A stretch of DNA of 64,000 bases from Ottowia flava (lineage in GTDB: Bacteria > Pseudomonadota > Gammaproteobacteria > Burkholderiales > Burkholderiaceae_C): assembly GCF_008017535.1 (NCBI RefSeq), contig NZ_VRUA01000008.1:1-64000 (forward strand), given 5' to 3'. Below the pieces are notes generated by a model. The model saw only the letters and a program-made list of their open reading frames with translations, was not told the DNA's origin and searched no databases. This document shows positions 4,588-56,283 of the stretch, piece by piece. Position 1 is the stretch's first letter. Each line of letters begins with the position of its first letter. The translations under genes were made by a program, and so were the position numbers.

Positions 4588-4804
4588 CGTAATATTTCAG
4601 AGGTATCACATTGCACGAAAAGGCCGTGCAATAGCCGAGCACATAAGCCATGGTCACGGCCACGGCCACGGCCATTTGGCTCTGACGGACAGGGTCTAGA
4701 TGTGGGTTCACCGAGAACCTCCTGACGGTTGCAGCGGTAGACCTGGATATGCGTGGAGCAATATCGATAGGATGTTTCTCAACGCGATTGCGAAGGGACT
4801 CAAC

Positions 4805-5998
4805 TCACGCGGACTTGGCACAAAAATGCGCCCATTCTTCCATCATCTGGCGCCGTTTCTCCAAGGCATCCCCCCGGCGGTAGGCGGCCTCGACCTTGCT
4901 CTCCAGCGTGTGCGCCAAGGCCTGCTCCGCCAGCTCCCGGGGGTAGTCGGTCTTCTCCCCCACCCAATCGCGGAAGGTGGAGCGAAAGCCGTGGGGCACG
5001 GCGTCCACGTTCATCCGGCGCATCACGGCCGTCATGCTCATGTCCGAGAGTGGCTGCCCCTTGGTGCCAGGAAACAGCAGTTCCGTGTCTTCAAATCGAG
5101 GGAGTTTGTGCAGTAAATCCATGGCCGCCTTGGATAGCGGGACACGGTGCTCGGTGCTGGCCTTCATCCGCTCGGCGGGGACCGTCCAGACGGCGGCTTG
5201 CCTGTCGATCTCCGACCAAGTCGCGCCCCGTGCCTCTCCGGACCGCGCGGCGGTTAGCACCACGAATTCCAGGGCGCGCGCCGCGATACCTTCGCGTTGG
5301 CGGAGATACGCCATGAAGCGCGGAAGATCCTCGACGGGAATGGCACGGTGGTGTTCGACCTTCTGGATCTTGGAGGGGGCCGCCAACACCTTGTCCAGAT
5401 GGCCTTTCCAGCGCGCCGGGTTCTCCCCGGTCCGGTATTTGCGCACGGTCGCCCAGTCCAGGATGGATTCGATGCGCCCCCGCAACCGGCTGGCCGTCTC
5501 GTTCTTCGTGCTCCAGATCGGCTCCAGGCAGGCGAGTACGTGCGGGAGATCGATCACCGACACGTTGAAATGGCCGAGGTGAGGCATCGCATAGGTCTCG
5601 AGCGTGTTCTCCCACTGCTGGCGGTGCTTGGGGTTGCTCCACTCGGGCGCCTTCGCCCGCAGGAACTCTTCCATGCACCAGCGAAATGTCTTTTCGGTGG
5701 CAGCCTGCGCGGCCAAGGCCATGCGCTGTTGCTTTCGCGGGGCCACGGGATCCACCCCTTCGCGCAGGCCGGCGTGGATCTCCCGAGCCTTGTCGCGAGC
5801 CTCGGACAGCCCCACGGAGGGATAGGCACCCAGGCCGATGTCGCGCCGCTTGTCACCCACCATCAGGCGCAGAACCCAGCCCCTATGGCCTGCGCTGACT
5901 CGCAAGTGCAGGCCAGGAGCACCGCCCACGGCATGCCGCCCATCGGTCTTGATCGCCGCCACGGCGCGATCGGAAAGCTGCCTGGCCACCTTGGGCAT
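4805..5998 (-). CDS. P4-type tyrosine integrase
   Basis: A 397-residue site-specific recombinase. The N-terminal 100 residues form the DUF4102 arm-binding domain (LSDRAVAAIK, GLHLRVSAGHRGWVLR, IGLGAYPSVGLSEAR). A central core-binding domain follows, then the catalytic domain with Arg in LTAARSGEARG, His-x-x-Arg in PHGFRSTFRDW, His in ALAHTLESKVEAAY and the nucleophile Tyr in AAYRRGD. Length is normal and all catalytic residues are present, so it looks functional. It likely integrates and excises the AT-rich island whose other genes lie to its left. Confidence 0.92.
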   Translation of the reverse strand: MPKVARQLSDRAVAAIKTDGRHAVGGAPGLHLRVSAGHRGWVLRLMVGDKRRDIGLGAYPSVGLSEARDKAREIHAGLREGVDPVAPRKQQRMALAAQAATEKTFRWCMEEFLRAKAPEWSNPKHRQQWENTLETYAMPHLGHFNVSVIDLPHVLACLEPIWSTKNETASRLRGRIESILDWATVRKYRTGENPARWKGHLDKVLAAPSKIQKVEHHRAIPVEDLPRFMAYLRQREGIAARALEFVVLTAARSGEARGATWSEIDRQAAVWTVPAERMKASTEHRVPLSKAAMDLLHKLPRFEDTELLFPGTKGQPLSDMSMTAVMRRMNVDAVPHGFRSTFRDWVGEKTDYPRELAEQALAHTLESKVEAAYRRGDALEKRRQMMEEWAHFCAKSA

Positions 5999-6424
5999 GG
6001 GAGGGTCTCCGCCAAAAAATCTTGTCCCACATTATGCCCACATAAAACACTGGCTGTGGCTAGAGCTGATTGGATCTTCTTGGACAACAAATAACAAATA
6101 ATCTATTTGAAATCAATAACTTACCAAACATCCATGGACATCATTGGAACTGCATTTAGCGGACGCCCTCTCCGCCACGGTGAGATCAACGACAGCCTTT
6201 GCAACGTATCCGGTTGCAAAGGCTTTGTCTTTTGGGTCGATCAGATCCGTCAGTCCGGCGTGGAACGGTCTCGCCCAATGCGCGGCAAGCCGCTCCCATG
6301 CGTGTCGGCCGCAGCCTCGCTTGCTGGCGTTGTTTCCATCCCTTTCAGAACGCCTCGATCGACTGCACTGAGGCACTGTCCAACTGGACCGAACACCTAG
6401 CGTCCCTGGGCTTCGGCCGCTAGC
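5999..6424. other. Intergenic region upstream of the integrase
   Basis: About 425 bases with no convincing gene. It must contain the integrase promoter (AT-rich part, 6040-6125) and possibly one attachment site. The rest has chromosome-like composition and includes the strong hairpin at 6195-6223. Confidence 0.4.
6195..6233 (+). terminator. Strong hairpin with T-rich tail
   Basis: GCCTTTGCAA and TTGCAAAGGC form a perfect 10-bp stem around a nine-base loop, followed by TTTGTCTTTT. It has the form of a rho-independent terminator on the plus strand, yet no gene ends just upstream, so it may be the remnant of a removed gene or insulate the island. Confidence 0.5.
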
Positions 6425-7919: not shown

Positions 7920-8443
7920 GCTTCAATCACTAAAACACTTGCAACCACGGATTGCGTTTCAAAACGGAAAGTGCAACCACCATTCCCATCGTCCGAGTCC
8001 AAACGCATCCTGGACGCGCGCTGAATCGACTTGCCAAGTGCAATGGCACACACCTGTATTCAACTCGCAATCGATGTCATATTGGTATTACCACCAATCG
8101 AAACACCCCCCAGAGCATTCATTCACCCCATCGACTGTGGGCTCACGTTCACAACGTGAAGAAGTCAAGGTTAAGCCGAAATACCTCTCATTTTGATGGT
8201 TTAATTGACCTATTTCGATGTTAAATTTCTCCTCCTCCCTAGGCGAATTGACGCAATTACTGTCTATTTGGCCAAAGTCCACTCACATCGGTATATCCAT
8301 GTCCTTTTTTCACATTTCCATGAATAACTCACACGGCAAACATCGACAATCGATCATTTGTTACAAAAATTCAACAATCAATCCTATTTTTACTACTAAA
8401 GCTATAGAATTTCCCCGTTATCACTTGTTTCAAGGAAATCAAA
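7920..8443. promoter_or_regulatory. AT-rich divergent intergenic region
   Basis: About 520 bases between the AraC gene and the roadblock-like gene, with no open frame worth calling. Base composition is far more AT-rich than either flank, especially 8060-8440. The plus-strand promoter should lie close to the gene: a TATAGAAT-like segment is seen at 8401-8408 and AAGGAAA precedes the ATG at 8444. The unusual length and composition suggest several binding sites or imported DNA. Confidence 0.45.
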
Positions 8444-8848
8444 ATGTCCCTCGATGCCAAGCTCGCAAGCGTCAGCACTACGATCCCGGAGTGTGTTGCG
8501 GCCGGATATGTCGATATCGGCTCAGGCATGTTGCTGTCAGTCAAGACGGTCGACTCGCACCCCCAGGAAGTGATCGCGTTGCTGGCAGCGGCAACGGCCG
8601 ACATGTTTGCAGGCCCGAATATCAGCACGATCGAGCGGCTATTTAAAAAAGCTCGCGGCATCGCCGACGATGGGCATCACTATTTCCAGGAAATGGTGGT
8701 CAACAGCGACAACCTGGTGCACGTCTTCCTGCGCGGCAAGCAATATCCTGACTACGTGGCGGTCTTCGTCTGCCGAAAGAGCGCCAACCTTGGCATGGCC
8801 CTGACCAAGGCGCGCATGGCCATGCCTGAAATCGAAGGCGCGGTGTAA
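8444..8848 (+). CDS. Conserved roadblock/LC7-like small protein
   Basis: A 134-residue soluble protein: AKLASVSTTIPECVAAGYVD, SGMLLSVKTVDSHPQEVIAL, then NLVHVFLRGKQYPDYVAVFV and SANLGMALTKARMAMPEI. The order helix, strand pair, helix, strand trio resembles the profilin-like roadblock/LC7 fold, which in bacteria acts with small GTPases or kinases as a dimeric regulator. This is a fold-level inference, not an active-site match. A good ribosome site (AAGGAAA) precedes the ATG. The next gene, 67 bases downstream on the same strand, is an ABC ATPase-phosphatase fusion, and the two probably form one operon. Confidence 0.75.
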   Translation: MSLDAKLASVSTTIPECVAAGYVDIGSGMLLSVKTVDSHPQEVIALLAAATADMFAGPNISTIERLFKKARGIADDGHHYFQEMVVNSDNLVHVFLRGKQYPDYVAVFVCRKSANLGMALTKARMAMPEIEGAV

Positions 8849-8915
8849 TCCTTAAGCCGTACTCAGCTTCGTTTATCTGGCTGGTCTACCTATCCCGCTT
8901 TTTCCGGTTTTTTCG

Positions 8916-10445
8916 ATGTCTGCCCTCCAGCTTTCAGGATTCGGCGTCTGTTTTGGGCACCGGGTAATACTGTCGAACATCGACCTTGAACTTCCCGCAC
9001 AAGGTGTGGACGTTCTGATGGGGCCAGTCAAGACGGGTAAATCAACCCTGATGCGCACGCTCGCCGGTTTGAATGCCTGCACGACCATCCATCGGCATTG
9101 GGGATGCGCGAAACTGGCCGACCGACCGGTGGGTGCTGGCTGGCGGCCGACACTGGTGCAGCAGCATGCCGCGCTGTTCAAGTCTTCGGTTCAAGAAGCG
9201 GTGCTGGCACAGAGCGCGCCCGCCACGCGGGCACAGCGCGACGAGGCCGCTCGCGAGGCCTTGCAGGCCCACGGGTTGGGCAGCATCGCCAATGGGCTCC
9301 GCCAATCGGTGCTTGAGTTGCCGGTGCACCAACAGCGGGCGATCAACATCCTGGCGCATGCGCTGCCTTGCCCGCCGCTGCTGATGGTCGATGAGCCGAC
9401 CTACGGCCTTCCGCCCGATGCTGCCCAGTGGCTGGTGGACTGGCTGCGCGCGCTGGGGGACAAGGTGCGCCTGTTGGTGGTGCTGCACCACCAGGGCCAG
9501 GCCCGACGGCTGGCCGACCGCGTGGTGTTGCTCGGGGGAGGTGTTGTGCTGGCGCACGGGCCAAACCCGCGCTTTTTTACCCATCCAGTCAACGACTGGG
9601 TGCGCCAGTTCGCGCTAAGCGGCAGCTTGTCGGTAGCATCGCCGGACGCGCGGGAAGAAGACCTTGACCCCTCGGTTCCGCCGCCCCCGCGCCTGCCCCA
9701 GGCCGCGCTCGACGCGGTGGCGGAATTCACGCAACGCCCGCCTCCGGCAGCACCCGTCGCGGCGGCCGTGCCACCGCCCTCGCCGCGGCCTCCACCGCCC
9801 GTGGATGTGCCGGCGCTCGCATCGATCGCTGTCAACGGCCACGCCACGACGCCACCGGCCAGGCATTGTGCGTCCACGGCGCCCATGGCCACGGTCGGCG
9901 CAGCGCTGCCGCCGCTGTCCCGCACGGGGGTCGAGACGGCCTCCATGGTCGGAAAGGCGATCATGACCGAGTACCGCGGGCCACACGGCTTTCATTGGAT
10001 CATTCCCGGCACGCTCGCAGGCTGCGGCGAACCCGGCGCGATGGCGCCAATCGATTACGACATGCAGTTGCTCGCCAACCTGGGAATTTCACATCTCGTC
10101 ACCCTGACGGAGAATGACATCGACGAGAACGCACTCGAACGCAACGGCCTGAAAAACATCCACCTGCCCATCTTCGACCGCGAGGCGCCCTCCGTCACAC
10201 AGGCCTACATGCTGGTGCGGCGCATGCAGTTGCTGCTGGACCAGGGCCACGTCATCGCGGTGCATTGCAAAGCGGGCATTGGGCGCACCGGCACCATCCT
10301 CGCTGCTTGGCTGATACGTGAGGGGGGCCTGAGCGCATCCGACGCGATCGCCCGGCTGCGCAACATCCACACCTACTACGTGCAAACGCGCGAGCAGGAA
10401 GTCTTTCTCGAACGGTTCGAGCAGGACATTCTCAAGCGCACCTGA
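8916..10445 (+). CDS. ABC-type ATPase fused to dual-specificity phosphatase
   Basis: A 509-residue two-domain protein. Residues 1-240 resemble an ABC ATPase: Walker A GPVKTGKST (Lys42, with the second glycine replaced), Q-loop near LVQQHAALF, Walker B LLMVDEPT (Asp159, Glu160) and an H-loop-like LVVLHHQG. The ABC signature LSGGQ is not recognisable (LPVHQQRAIN stands at its place). Residues 255-335 are a proline-rich linker. Residues 345-509 are a dual-specificity/tyrosine phosphatase with the active-site loop HCKAGIGRTG (Cys451, Arg457) and a possible general-acid Asp near IFDREAPS. No membrane segments are seen, so it is probably cytosolic. Cosubstrates are unknown. It follows the roadblock-like gene. 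Confidence 0.85.
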   Translation: MSALQLSGFGVCFGHRVILSNIDLELPAQGVDVLMGPVKTGKSTLMRTLAGLNACTTIHRHWGCAKLADRPVGAGWRPTLVQQHAALFKSSVQEAVLAQSAPATRAQRDEAAREALQAHGLGSIANGLRQSVLELPVHQQRAINILAHALPCPPLLMVDEPTYGLPPDAAQWLVDWLRALGDKVRLLVVLHHQGQARRLADRVVLLGGGVVLAHGPNPRFFTHPVNDWVRQFALSGSLSVASPDAREEDLDPSVPPPPRLPQAALDAVAEFTQRPPPAAPVAAAVPPPSPRPPPPVDVPALASIAVNGHATTPPARHCASTAPMATVGAALPPLSRTGVETASMVGKAIMTEYRGPHGFHWIIPGTLAGCGEPGAMAPIDYDMQLLANLGISHLVTLTENDIDENALERNGLKNIHLPIFDREAPSVTQAYMLVRRMQLLLDQGHVIAVHCKAGIGRTGTILAAWLIREGGLSASDAIARLRNIHTYYVQTREQEVFLERFEQDILKRT

Positions 10446-10506: not shown

Positions 10507-11178
10507 TCAAAAGCGCAGTGTCCTGACCCCATTGGCCGTGCCCAGCAGGCACACGCTGGCCTTCTGGTGCGCGAAAACACCCACGGTGACGACGCCCGGC
10601 CATTGGTTGACCTCGCTTTCAAAGCCCAGCGGGTCGGTGATCGCCAAACCGCGCACGTCCAGAATGTGCTGGCCGTTGTCCGTCACCAGCGGCTGGCCGT
10701 CTTTCACGCGCAGCGTGGCCTGCGCATTCATCGCGGCAAACTGGCGCGCAATGCGCTGCGCCGCCATCGGGATCACCTCCACCGGCAGCGGGAACTGCCC
10801 CAGCACGTCGACCCGCTTGGAATCGTCCGCGATGCACACGAACTGGCGCGCCTGCGCGGCCACGATCTTCTCGCGCGTCAGCGCCGCGCCGCCGCCTTTG
10901 ACCAGGTAGCCCTTGGGGTCGATCTCGTCCGCGCCGTCGATGTAGACGGCCAGCTCGCCGACCTCGTTGGCGTCGTACACCGGGATGCCCAGTGCCTTCA
11001 GCCGCGCGGTAGACGCTTCTGACGACGACACGGCGCCGGCGATGCGGTCCTTGACCAGCCCGAGCTCGTCAATGAACTTGTTCACCGTCGATCCGGTGCC
11101 CACGCCCACGATTTCGCCGGGCACCACGTAGTCCAGCGCGGCCTGGCCGACCATGGCTTTGAGTTCGTCCTGGGTCAT
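10507..11178 (-). CDS. rpiA: Ribose-5-phosphate isomerase A
   Basis: A 223-residue enzyme interconverting ribose 5-phosphate and ribulose 5-phosphate in the cytosolic pentose phosphate pathway. The frame is open far upstream, but the protein starts at the ATG 11176-11178 ([18 protein letters not shown]). Family signatures follow: [14 protein letters not shown] (phosphate-binding loop), [23 protein letters not shown] with the catalytic Asp, and [12 protein letters not shown] with the catalytic Lys. Length is normal. It is divergent from pyrD, with 48 bases between the starts. Confidence 0.96.
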
Positions 11179-11226
11179 TTGCGACAATTCCTCCGGTTCA
11201 CACAATGTCTTGCGAAGAATTATCCA

Positions 11227-12297
11227 ATGGCCCTGCTCCCCTACGGTCTGGCGCGCCCCTTTCTGTTCAACCTGGACCCGGAGGCGGCGCACGAGATGAC
11301 CATCGACGCCCTGGCGCGCGGCGCCGGCACGCCGCTGCAATGGGCCTGGTGCGGGGCGCGGGTGGACGACCCGGTCATTGTGGCGGGCCTGCACTTCCCC
11401 AACCGCGTGGGCCTGGCAGCGGGCTTGGACAAGAACGCGCGCGCCATCGACGGCTTTGCCGGCATGGGCTTCGGCTTTGTCGAAGTCGGCACCGTGACCC
11501 CGTTGGCGCAGCCGGGCAACCCCAAGCCGCGCATGTTCCGCCTGCCGCAGGCCCATGCCCTGATCAACCGCATGGGCTTCAACAACGACGGGCTGGACGC
11601 GTTTGTACGCAACGTCAGAAACTCCCGATTTCATAGCAGATCGCGCAGTTCTGGCAAGGGCCAACGCATGATTCTTGGCCTGAACATCGGCAAGAACGCG
11701 ACCACGCCGATCGAGCGCGCCACCGACGATTACCTGATCGGCCTGGCCGGCGTGTACCCGCACGCCGATTACGTGACGGTGAACATCTCCAGCCCCAACA
11801 CCAAGAACCTGCGCGACCTGCAAAGCGACGCCGCACTGGATGCGCTGCTCGGCGCGCTGAAAAGCCGCCAGCGTGAGCTGGCCGACGAACACCGGCGCCA
11901 GGTCCCGCTGTTCCTGAAGATCGCACCGGACCTGGACGCCTCGCAGGTCCAAGCCATCGCGGACGCGCTGCGCCGCCACGCCATCGACGGCGTGATCGCC
12001 ACCAACACCACGCTGTCGCGCGAGGCGGTGCAAGGCATGCGCCACGCCGACGAGGCGGGCGGCCTGTCCGGCGCGCCGGTGCGCGAGGCCAGCAACCGCG
12101 TGGTGTCCGAGCTGCGCGCGGCCCTGGGCGAGGGCTTCCCGATCATCGGCGTGGGCGGTGTGATGAGCGGCGCCGACGCCGTTGCCAAGATCGACGCCGG
12201 GGCCGACCTGGTGCAGATCTACACCGGGCTGATCTACCGCGGCCCCGCGCTGGTGCAGGAAGCCGCCGCCCAGCTGCGCCAGCGCGCGGCCCGATGA
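11227..12297 (+). CDS. pyrD: Dihydroorotate dehydrogenase (quinone), class 2
   Basis: A membrane-associated FMN enzyme that oxidises dihydroorotate to orotate in pyrimidine synthesis and passes electrons to quinone. The start [20 protein letters not shown] is the usual class 2 N-terminus. [31 protein letters not shown] and [15 protein letters not shown] (catalytic Ser) are present, and LIGVGG-type FMN residues appear near the end. Oddly, between VRNVRNSRF and [10 protein letters not shown] the protein carries about 13 extra polar residues ([12 protein letters not shown]) coded by a dispersed repeat at 11627-11663. This loop lies before a core strand, so activity may be kept. The stop overlaps the next start (ATGA). 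Confidence 0.95.
11627..11663 (+). repeat. Dispersed repeat copy inside pyrD
   Basis: TTTCATAGCAGATCGCGCAG followed by TTCTGGCAAGGGCCA matches the dispersed repeat seen elsewhere in the window (for example TTTGATAGCTGGCTGCGCAG then TTCTGACAAGCGC in nirC). It keeps the reading frame. Confidence 0.7.
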
Positions 12298-55089: not shown

Positions 55090-56214
55090 CTACGCCGCCA
55101 CCTTCGGCGCGCAGGTCGGGCAGCTCACGGTGCCCAGGCGCCGGTGGTAGAGCACCTCGACGCCGCTGGCCACTTCCGCGCCACAGTGGTCGCACAGCGT
55201 CGCTGCGGACAGGGTTTCGCGCTCGAAGCCTTCGGTGTAGATCTCGACGCCGCCTTCGACGCGCGGCCAGCTGGTCGACTTGACGATGTCGGGGCGAAAG
55301 TACTCCTCAAAACGCGTCCAGCGCTGGATCTGCGCTTCGCTCAGGCCATGCTCACGCAGCGTCTGCACCATCAGCGACTGGCGGAAGTCGAACAACTCGT
55401 GCGTGATGATCATCCAGTGGTGCGCATTGCGCGGGCGGTCGCCGAAGTAGATCTTTTCTCCGGTCATGGCCAGGCGCAGGAACGAATACTGCTTGTCGAT
55501 GGCGCGCTCGATGGTCACGCCGCGGAAGAACGGTCCAAGCCGCTCATCCGCATAGACCTTGGGGTAGAAATCCTCCAGCACCGCACGTACGGTGCGCCCC
55601 TCGTCCAGCTCGTGCCACAGCGCGAGGTCGGTGTGCGTCATCGGCAGGCCCTGCGACGGCACGCCGTCGAACGGGCCGCGCACCTCGAACATCCAGCCGA
55701 ACTCGGCGTCCGGGCCAAAGCCTTCGGGCAAGCTCGTGCCGGGGCGCAGCCTCAGCTCGCCAGTCATGACCATGTCGACCGCCGGGTCGGAAGTGATCAC
55801 GATCTCCGGCTCCACCCCGCTGGCGGTGACGACGCGCAAGGTCTGCCCCCGGCGGTAGCGCAGCGCAGGCTGCGGCTCGAAGATCAGCCGCACCACCCCG
55901 TCGTCGTGACCTGCGGCTTCGCACAGCATGCACGCAGTCAGCAGGTCGTCGGGCTGCGGTGCCCTCAAGTGCATCGGGCCTTGCGCATGGCACTGGCAGG
56001 GCAGCAGGTAGTGCATGCGCACCAGGTGATCAGACAGGCCGTGCTGCGCCGCCGCGGGCACCGGGCCTTCCGTGCACTGCATCAGGCAGGTGTGGCAGGA
56101 GCCGCTTTTGCACGAGAACGGCGCATCGATCCCGACGCGCAGCAGCGCGTCGAGCACGGTTTCACCCTCCCACGGCTCGACCGATTGGCCCCCGAAGTTC
56201 AAAGAAGCAGGCAT
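55090..56214 (-). CDS. [2Fe-2S] ferredoxin fused to a globin-like domain
   Basis: A 374-residue fusion. Residues 1-80 are a plant-type ferredoxin with cluster ligands Cys35, Cys40, Cys43 and Cys73 (spacing 4, 2, 29). Residues about 85-180 look like part of a ferredoxin-reductase beta barrel (EPQPALRYRRGQTLRVV). Residues 200-305 resemble a truncated haemoglobin (VRAVLEDFYPKVYADERLGP, RAIDKQYSFLRLAMTGEKIY, RPRNAHHWMIITHELFDFRQ with candidate proximal His). The tail has CDHCGAEV and CPTC, a zinc-ribbon pair. The ATG at 56212-56214 follows GGAGGTGCC. It may handle NO; this is inference from domains and context. Confidence 0.75.
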   Translation of the reverse strand: MPASLNFGGQSVEPWEGETVLDALLRVGIDAPFSCKSGSCHTCLMQCTEGPVPAAAQHGLSDHLVRMHYLLPCQCHAQGPMHLRAPQPDDLLTACMLCEAAGHDDGVVRLIFEPQPALRYRRGQTLRVVTASGVEPEIVITSDPAVDMVMTGELRLRPGTSLPEGFGPDAEFGWMFEVRGPFDGVPSQGLPMTHTDLALWHELDEGRTVRAVLEDFYPKVYADERLGPFFRGVTIERAIDKQYSFLRLAMTGEKIYFGDRPRNAHHWMIITHELFDFRQSLMVQTLREHGLSEAQIQRWTRFEEYFRPDIVKSTSWPRVEGGVEIYTEGFERETLSAATLCDHCGAEVASGVEVLYHRRLGTVSCPTCAPKVAA

Positions 56215-56283
56215 GGCACCTCCCACAGGTCAACAGTGACAGCCTTAAATATTAGTACTTTCGTATTTATTTACAGTCAGGGT

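Follow-up and report, generated by a model that had tools for sequence, protein, structure and literature searches.

What might a small protein with the roadblock order of secondary structure be doing beside a larger protein that joins an ATP-binding cassette (ABC) ATPase to a dual-specificity phosphatase (DSP)? The question is raised by two adjacent open reading frames (ORFs), here called genes A and B, in a stretch of 64,000 nucleotides (nt) from Ottowia flava (contig NZ_VRUA01000008.1, assembly GCF_008017535.1), the whole of which we refer to as the window. An earlier note, made from the letters of the window alone, had described the two as a signalling pair, and a signalling setting is what the GTPase and roadblock neighbours in related genomes indicate. 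The A-B module is real and conserved, and its fold and neighbourhood tie it to signalling of the MglA/MglB type, so that it is not categorically new. What the earlier note missed is that the pair is associated with GTPase systems of the Group 3 MglA-like kind, and that the window itself encodes a ferredoxin-globin protein. On the strength of the computed folds, motif conservation, pairing, GTPase neighbourhood and ferredoxin-globin co-occurrence, we would give about an even chance to the proposal that A and B form an ATP-gated phosphatase-roadblock unit that serves Group 3 MglA signalling and receives a redox or gas input.

The gene pair and its distribution

The two ORFs, of 134 and 509 residues, lie where they had been placed in that note, A at 8444-8848 and B at 8916-10445, both on the + strand and separated by 67 nt (8849-8915, +) that fit a single transcript; no terminator-like site was found on the + strand between 7800 and 10700. 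In relatives the median gap is 48-51 nt over 58 measured pairs. Loci from named genomes were gathered from the best 80 of 246 relatives of A, which gave 79 loci, and the rates quoted for them are those of close relatives of A. At 74 of the 79, A and the DSP half of B are direct neighbours sharing a strand, 58 of these loci having the arrangement B-A and 16 the arrangement A-B; at three further loci the contig ends inside B, one (L134) holds an orphan A, and in another (L143) A lies 88 nt from the start of the contig, where pairing cannot be judged.

Two genome samples extend this picture, one of 250 genomes of the window's family, searched for A, B, the GTPase and the ferredoxin-globin protein, with B counted as present at E<=1e-30, and one of 369 genomes across the class, in which A was called strong at E<1e-50; none of the p-values given is corrected for the kinship of the genomes. 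Within the family A occurs in 19 genomes, B in 17 and both in 16 (hypergeometric p 2.4e-21), the one genome of the 17 that lacks A being G066, where the B match covers the ABC half only. B stands beside A at 20 of the 23 places at which these 19 genomes carry A, and the places with no B nearby are L065 (prophage-like by eye), L076 and L077. In L076 (5985-12130, - strand) a second, unpaired A is flanked by two autotransporter-type genes that fall into the same cluster, one of them checked against Pfam. Across the class sample A is strong in eight genomes and only weak in 15 others. Six of the strong-A genomes belong to other families than the window's, and each of them carries B, including a divergent copy in G614, an ABC-DSP fusion without the LSGG motif that was not recovered at 1e-20. 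Relatives of A are found in other Burkholderiales, Rhodocyclaceae, Gallionella, Stenotrophomonas, Lysobacter and other gamma-proteobacteria, and also in Myxococcus and Acidocella. The gene-neighbourhood survey for which the earlier note had called thus returned a conserved co-occurrence. That note had named a want of co-occurrence, a frame error within the fusion and a different fold of the small protein as ways in which its account might fail; what we find is recurrent pairing, a fusion that recurs in other genomes and a roadblock fold.

The small protein encoded by gene A

Neither Pfam nor NCBIfam offers a family for A at E<=1, PF03259 included. The AlphaFold2 model of A, computed from an alignment of 59 sequences, has a predicted local distance difference test (pLDDT) score of 91.5 and places helices (H) and strands (E) at H3-11, E17-24, E29-35, H41-56, H58-71, E83-87, E91-97, E104-111 and H116-132, which is the alpha-beta-beta-alpha-beta-beta-beta-alpha order of Roadblock/LC7, realised in the model as H-EE-HH-EEE-H. 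The 50 matches listed by Foldseek are all chains of the roadblock family, among them MglB, MglC, archaeal roadblocks and Ragulator subunits. With the VIA aligner the best solved match is MglB (6hjm_K; Z 16.4, root mean square deviation (rmsd) 2.0 over 117 residues), and the rows for profilins start at a Z of about 11. A profile of A matches the canonical roadblocks of neighbouring operons with a probability of 88% (E 3e-6). The roadblock order that had been read from the sequence is matched by the predicted fold, by which A is a roadblock (MglB-like) protein. It is probably kin, in derived form, to the second MglB that Group 3 MglA systems possess, and would have gained B as its partner within that lineage.

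Two cysteines mark the A family. All 59 aligned relatives have both Cys17 (codon at 8492-8494, +) and Cys110 (codon at 8771-8773, +), as do three of three relatives from Ruegeria, and the pair occurs in none of the 22 rows of A's sister family. Cys17 stands at the start of strand 1 and Cys110 at the end of strand 5, positions that we would expect, from the general topology of roadblock proteins, to be close together. Column identity averages 76% in A as against 37% in B, linker included.

The fusion protein encoded by gene B

Pfam assigns the N-terminal part of B to ABC_tran (PF00005, E 1.2e-7) and finds DSP families in its C-terminal part, namely PF22785 Tc-R-P (5.4e-26), PF22784 PTP-SAK (6.2e-19) and PF00782 (1.6e-13), the last of these exceeding its family cut-off. 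The AlphaFold2 model (pLDDT 86.8) consists of a good ABC domain (residues 1-240; 8916-9635, +), for which the best solved Foldseek match is PstB, and a good DSP domain (residues 354-509; 9975-10442, +), with a mostly low-confidence linker, rich in Pro and Ala, between them (residues 273-353; 9732-9974, +). A frame error or an accidental fusion is ruled out by 48 other, non-redundant fusions from named genomes, which together with the window's B make up an alignment of 49. In this alignment the span that holds the linker, counted from the column of residue 240 to that of residue 354, takes up 32 to 189 residues. The best relative of B in the 250-genome sample shares 71% identity over residues 2-508.

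The residues picked out in the earlier note had been numbered correctly: Lys42 in the Walker A motif (36-44), the pair Asp159-Glu160, and Cys451 within HCKAGIGRTG. In the ABC domain Gly36, Gly41, Lys42, Ser43, Gln83, Asp159, Glu160 and His191 are invariant in all 49 fusions, and in the DSP domain the same is true of Asp421, His450, Cys451, Gly454, Gly456, Arg457, Thr458 and Gly459, so that every fusion has both the HCxxGxGRTG loop and the general-acid Asp421. LSGG is found in none of the 49, the window's B having no LSGGQ at 133-141, and as a control it was seen in seven of seven other ABC ATPases inspected from the window's genome. The LSGGQ signature acts across the canonical ABC dimer and is required there for hydrolysis. 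Since the nucleotide contacts and the phosphatase site have been kept and LSGG has been lost, selection appears to have released the dimer-spanning motif. The degenerate signature had been noted before, as had the changed Walker A glycine, which proves to be a subgroup trait: Lys replaces Gly at the fourth Walker A position (residue 39) in 10 of the 49 fusions. To judge from these motifs, the ABC domain is likelier to bind ATP than to hydrolyse it in the canonical manner, as had also been suggested. ATP would then probably act as a regulatory ligand of B, and B is probably an ATP-binding switch on a phosphatase with an intact predicted active site.

Group 3 MglA-like GTPases in the neighbourhood

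On the same strand and within 6 kb of A, the 79 named-genome loci contain a GTPase in 16 cases, a canonical PF03259-type roadblock in 13, a protein of cluster c17 in 12, a ferredoxin-globin protein in 17 and a CxxCxxCC protein in three; a Pfam scan of c17 gave only sub-threshold helix-turn-helix (HTH) matches. The neighbour clusters come from a simple gene caller, four of them (c9, c27, c34 and c52) having been set aside as likely antisense ORF artefacts, and further calls may also err. A Ras-like small GTPase accompanies the A-B pair in Thiobacillus, Rhodocyclaceae, Alcanivorax, Lysobacter, Thiohalophilus and other loci, along with varying subsets of canonical roadblock, c17, CxxCxxCC protein and ferredoxin-reductase-globin protein. 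The operon of one Thiobacillus locus (L159) runs c17, GTPase, B, A, roadblock (PF03259, 4.6e-14), CxxCxxCC protein and ferredoxin-reductase-globin. All six strong-A genomes outside the window's family have the GTPase, and in five it is adjacent to A-B. Of 18 weak A-like places, 12 have a GTPase within about 1.5 kb, and none has a B match in the stretches examined, that of L190 being short. A's sister family (L181-L198), in which both cysteines are absent, is mostly found beside a Group 3-like GTPase and sometimes in tandem.

Group 3 MglA systems occur in beta- and gamma-Proteobacteria and are described, in the examined parts of PMC4316618, as comprising MglA, one or two MglB and a protein of unknown family with a receiver-like N-terminus and a winged HTH C-terminus. 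The composition of the wider A-B operons resembles these systems.

In the window's own genome the parts are dispersed, with A-B at 8.4-10.4 kb and the ferredoxin-globin gene at 55 kb of the window, and the GTPase operon on another contig, C1 (L170, 6958-11819, -). That operon encodes a roadblock, a PAS protein, a phosphonate-binding-like protein, a 192-residue protein, a c17-like protein, the GTPase and a last protein with a sub-threshold roadblock match. By eye, its PAS domain resembles that of a chemoreceptor adjoining A in L059. A second GTPase is found on a third contig, C45 (L171, 4854-6146, +), with two roadblock-like genes directly downstream, one of them under the Pfam cut-off. A and the ferredoxin-globin gene are absent from three genomes of the same genus (G015, G146 and G230). 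The impression is of a GTPase system with a separable layer on top, made up of A, B and the ferredoxin-globin gene.

The ferredoxin-globin protein

The companion protein of the window (55093-56226, -) has about 378 residues and combines a 2Fe-2S ferredoxin domain (Fer2, 1.7e-12) with a truncated globin (Bac_globin, 5.3e-10; both Pfam) and a C-terminal four-cysteine motif that is common to 17 aligned sequences. Its gene lies 45 kb from A-B, and it is 43% identical to a copy in the A/B operon of L128. At a threshold of 1e-30 the protein is found in eight of the 250 family genomes, which span seven genera, and all eight carry A (hypergeometric p 2.2e-10, or 2.9e-9 without the window's genome). 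In the 369-genome sample, where the globin-cysteine part was sought at 1e-25, five genomes have it and all five are strong-A genomes (p 1.0e-9, or 4.7e-8 without its own genome). Over both samples, which share one such genome, 12 of 12 distinct genomes with a ferredoxin-globin protein carry A. The converse fails, 11 of the 19 family genomes with A having no ferredoxin-globin match at 1e-30. Within the family the gene lies beside A in G208 only; it is far from A or on another contig in G018, G086, G126, G181 and G231, and on another contig in the fragmented assembly of G008. Among genomes of other families, G372, G445 and G558 have it near A, whereas in G614 the two are on separate contigs. Because the gene co-occurs with A although it is often distant, the association is not a matter of hitch-hiking only.

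The window also holds a cytochrome cd1-type gene (PF02239; 48517-50424, +), followed by further genes that look cytochrome- or nir-like by eye. Denitrification was considered as a theme for the ferredoxin-globin family and set aside: by eye, with no profile search made there, no nirS-type gene was seen around five family copies (L211-L215), and the nirS-type neighbour of the window may therefore be incidental.

A proposed mechanism and its alternatives

In the reading that we favour, A would dock B to form a complex and, where one is present, would also dock a Group 3 MglA-like small GTPase. The state of the GTPase and the occupancy of the ATP site would together set the activity or the place of the phosphatase, which would remove phosphate from a partner. 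The cue, be it redox state, O2 or NO, would come from the ferredoxin-globin protein, and the two conserved cysteines of A may be what senses it; the signal would pass in the direction of B. Where the GTPase is absent, A-B could act alone.

As for the partner, A-family genes are found beside phosphorylation genes in two settings, and this favours a protein as the substrate. On three Ruegeria plasmids (L079, L080 and L081, at about 7.7-23.7 kb of these loci; three of five matches were examined) four genes of the dynamin family share an operon with an A-family gene, along with genes for a protein kinase, an FHA protein, a PP2C and substrate-binding proteins, and the ABC-DSP fusion is absent. In the prophage-like L065 the A gene is about 0.2 kb downstream of an FHA-domain gene (8830-9800, +, for this part), and a protein kinase gene (245-1303, -) is found about 8 kb away.

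If the proposal is right, these genes represent a bacterial pathway that links a Ras-like switch to dephosphorylation. The outputs of Group 3 MglA systems seem to be largely undescribed, and the conserved phosphatase, tied as it is to a roadblock protein and probably switched by ATP binding, would be a concrete candidate for one, just as the ferredoxin-globin companionship points to a candidate input. The fusion is also an instance of an ABC domain that has been retained without its signature motif, as it has throughout the 49 aligned fusions.

Several observations weigh against this reading. No GTPase was detected, either at 1e-10 or at 1e-8 with a second query, in eight of the 19 family genomes that carry A, and one of these is G003, whose B is the nearest to the window's in the 250-genome sample. 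Within the family the GTPase is adjacent to A only in G086 and G208. The overlap between GTPase and A there amounts to 11 of 31 GTPase genomes, or to seven of 27 (p 0.0016) when the four weakest GTPase matches are left out. G146, of the window's own genus, has kept the GTPase of the window's genome at 91% with no match for A or the ferredoxin-globin protein, and it is not one of the 17 genomes counted as having B. The A of G614, a strong match in a genome that has B, keeps Cys17 and has Thr at position 110, which speaks against an indispensable cysteine pair. Finally, the GTPases were labelled Group 3 by similarity, taxonomy and neighbours and not by a tree.

A bolder version of the proposal, which we think somewhat less likely than not, holds that we are dealing with a new G-protein/phosphatase system in which the ferredoxin-globin protein is the sensor, the GTPase and the cysteine-bearing roadblock form the relay and the ATP-gated phosphatase is the output, and that in most of the window's family only roadblock and phosphatase are left together, the remaining components having been dispersed or having disappeared.

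It is also conceivable, and in our judgement unlikely without being far-fetched, that A-B is a self-contained ATP-sensing phosphatase module, in which A is a platform for B or its inhibitor and the GTPase is optional in some lineages. The eight family genomes with no detectable GTPase suggest that the pair may act alone, all the more as A and B stay together at most places in the family, and the higher conservation of A relative to B is what would be expected of a hub. Against such independence speak the strong-A genomes outside the family, every one of which has the GTPase, in most cases adjacent, and the sister A-like genes, which mostly adjoin one.

An improbable explanation is that the pair belongs to conflict or mobile-element biology, as an effector and its regulator comparable to the DSP domains associated with polymorphic toxins. 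The name of the best Pfam match of B, Tc-R-P, refers to a polymorphic toxin DSP, the distribution of A and B is patchy, and copies of A occur beside the FHA gene of prophage-like L065 and as lone genes at 10001-10396 of two IMG/VR contigs (L199 and L200, with 62% and 56% identity to A). These viral copies, however, have no B in the stretches examined, and a phage collection yielded no match for A. PADLOC had no match for A, and those that it gave for B were weak and confined to the ABC domain, the best being mad3 (2.8e-7). No toxin or immunity gene was noticed among the recurrent neighbours, though no search aimed at such genes was made, and operons with a ferredoxin-reductase-globin protein do not suggest conflict.

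More improbable still is that B serves an ABC transporter as its nucleotide-binding subunit and that the phosphatase is an accessory. The closest solved ABC folds are transporter nucleotide-binding domains such as PstB and MlaF, and at seven of the 79 loci A has a PF00528 ABC-type permease gene on its own strand no more than 6 kb off; six of the seven (L101, L113, L116, L118, L119 and L121) have it 167-597 nt ahead of B. Yet the permease cluster is absent from that range in the other 72 (among the recurrent clusters examined), LSGG has been lost from every fusion, and in both loci inspected (L101 and L119) the permease has an LSGG-bearing ATPase gene of its own adjoining it on the opposite strand.

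Other features of the window and of related loci

The earlier note had raised the possibility that the AraC gene across the gap upstream of A controls the pair. An AraC gene of this cluster stands beside A only in the window and in its two nearest relatives, L059 and L082, and in both of these (10625-12244 and 4638-6215, respectively) a divergent PAS-chemoreceptor gene, Pfam-checked in L059, comes between A and AraC; it is absent from that position in the window. All that shows up in the gap itself is a set of short repeats in two copies, a single imperfect inverted repeat and one weak promoter-like site at 8343. With no conserved AraC neighbourhood, AraC control of A-B is not supported, and we have set it aside. 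Nor does it hold that no transporter span lies nearby, a major facilitator superfamily gene (PF07690; 12294-13781) being found about 1.8 kb downstream of the module. Upstream of the module are a DDE transposase gene (PF01609; 27-980, -) and a phage-type integrase gene (PF00589; 4805-5998, -), and this part of the window is possibly mobile.

In Comamonas and Delftia the recurrent neighbours of A comprise a trypsin-PDZ protease (c5), a response regulator (c2), a GAF-GGDEF protein (c4), an ArsC-family protein (c3), a purine-type permease (c23) and an ABC permease (c12). These neighbours likely reflect the synteny of the lineage, and of them c4 and c12 could matter.

Comparison with known systems

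The module shares some part with each of several known systems. A has the roadblock fold over its whole length in common with MglB of Myxococcus xanthus (6hjm_K), and it also aligns with MglC of that species (7ct3; Z 11.3, rmsd 3.3 over 109 residues with VIA), at 15-20% identity to these proteins. To our knowledge, a partner of the B type is not part of the MglB/MglC systems of Myxococcus xanthus. The DSP domain of B has the same P-loop as DSPs that stand alone, human DUSP23 (2img, 4erc) and a bacterial DSP family protein (25xa) among them; unlike these, it follows an ABC domain, to which it is joined through a long linker of variable length. With PstB and MlaF the ABC domain shares its fold, the Walker A motif, the Q-loop, the Walker B motif with its Glu and the H-loop; it differs from them in the loss of LSGG from all 49 fusions and in that most of its loci are without a permease. 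MlaF works with a STAS protein, MlaB, whereas the small partner of B is a roadblock protein. Among the papers listed by our searches of an open-licence library, a scope outside which most subscription journals fall, we found none that describes an ABC-DSP fusion beside a roadblock protein.

The closest likeness in gene content is to the Group 3 MglA/MglB systems of PMC4316618, as far as the examined parts of that paper describe them. The wider A-B operons likewise combine a GTPase with one or two MglB-type roadblocks and a further protein, and the sister genes of A are mostly found beside such GTPases. Unlike Group 3 MglB, A has no PF03259 match and carries a conserved pair of cysteines. Neither A, nor the ABC-DSP fusion, nor the ferredoxin-globin protein is described in those parts, and the main text has no word beginning with "phosphatase".

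Two precedents bear on the input and the output. In HGbRL of Methylacidiphilum a globin is fused to a roadblock domain, and a role in signalling is proposed in the examined part of PMC4476040; the link between globin and roadblock is shared with the system discussed here, in which the two are encoded by separate genes, the globin is part of a ferredoxin-globin protein and the partner is a phosphatase. In Snodgrassella, where a Group 3 system includes an orphan mglB, a mutation in that gene is reported in PMC11112851 to have altered motility, probably by way of type IV pili. By analogy, these two precedents would make both the proposed input and the proposed output of the A-B module plausible.

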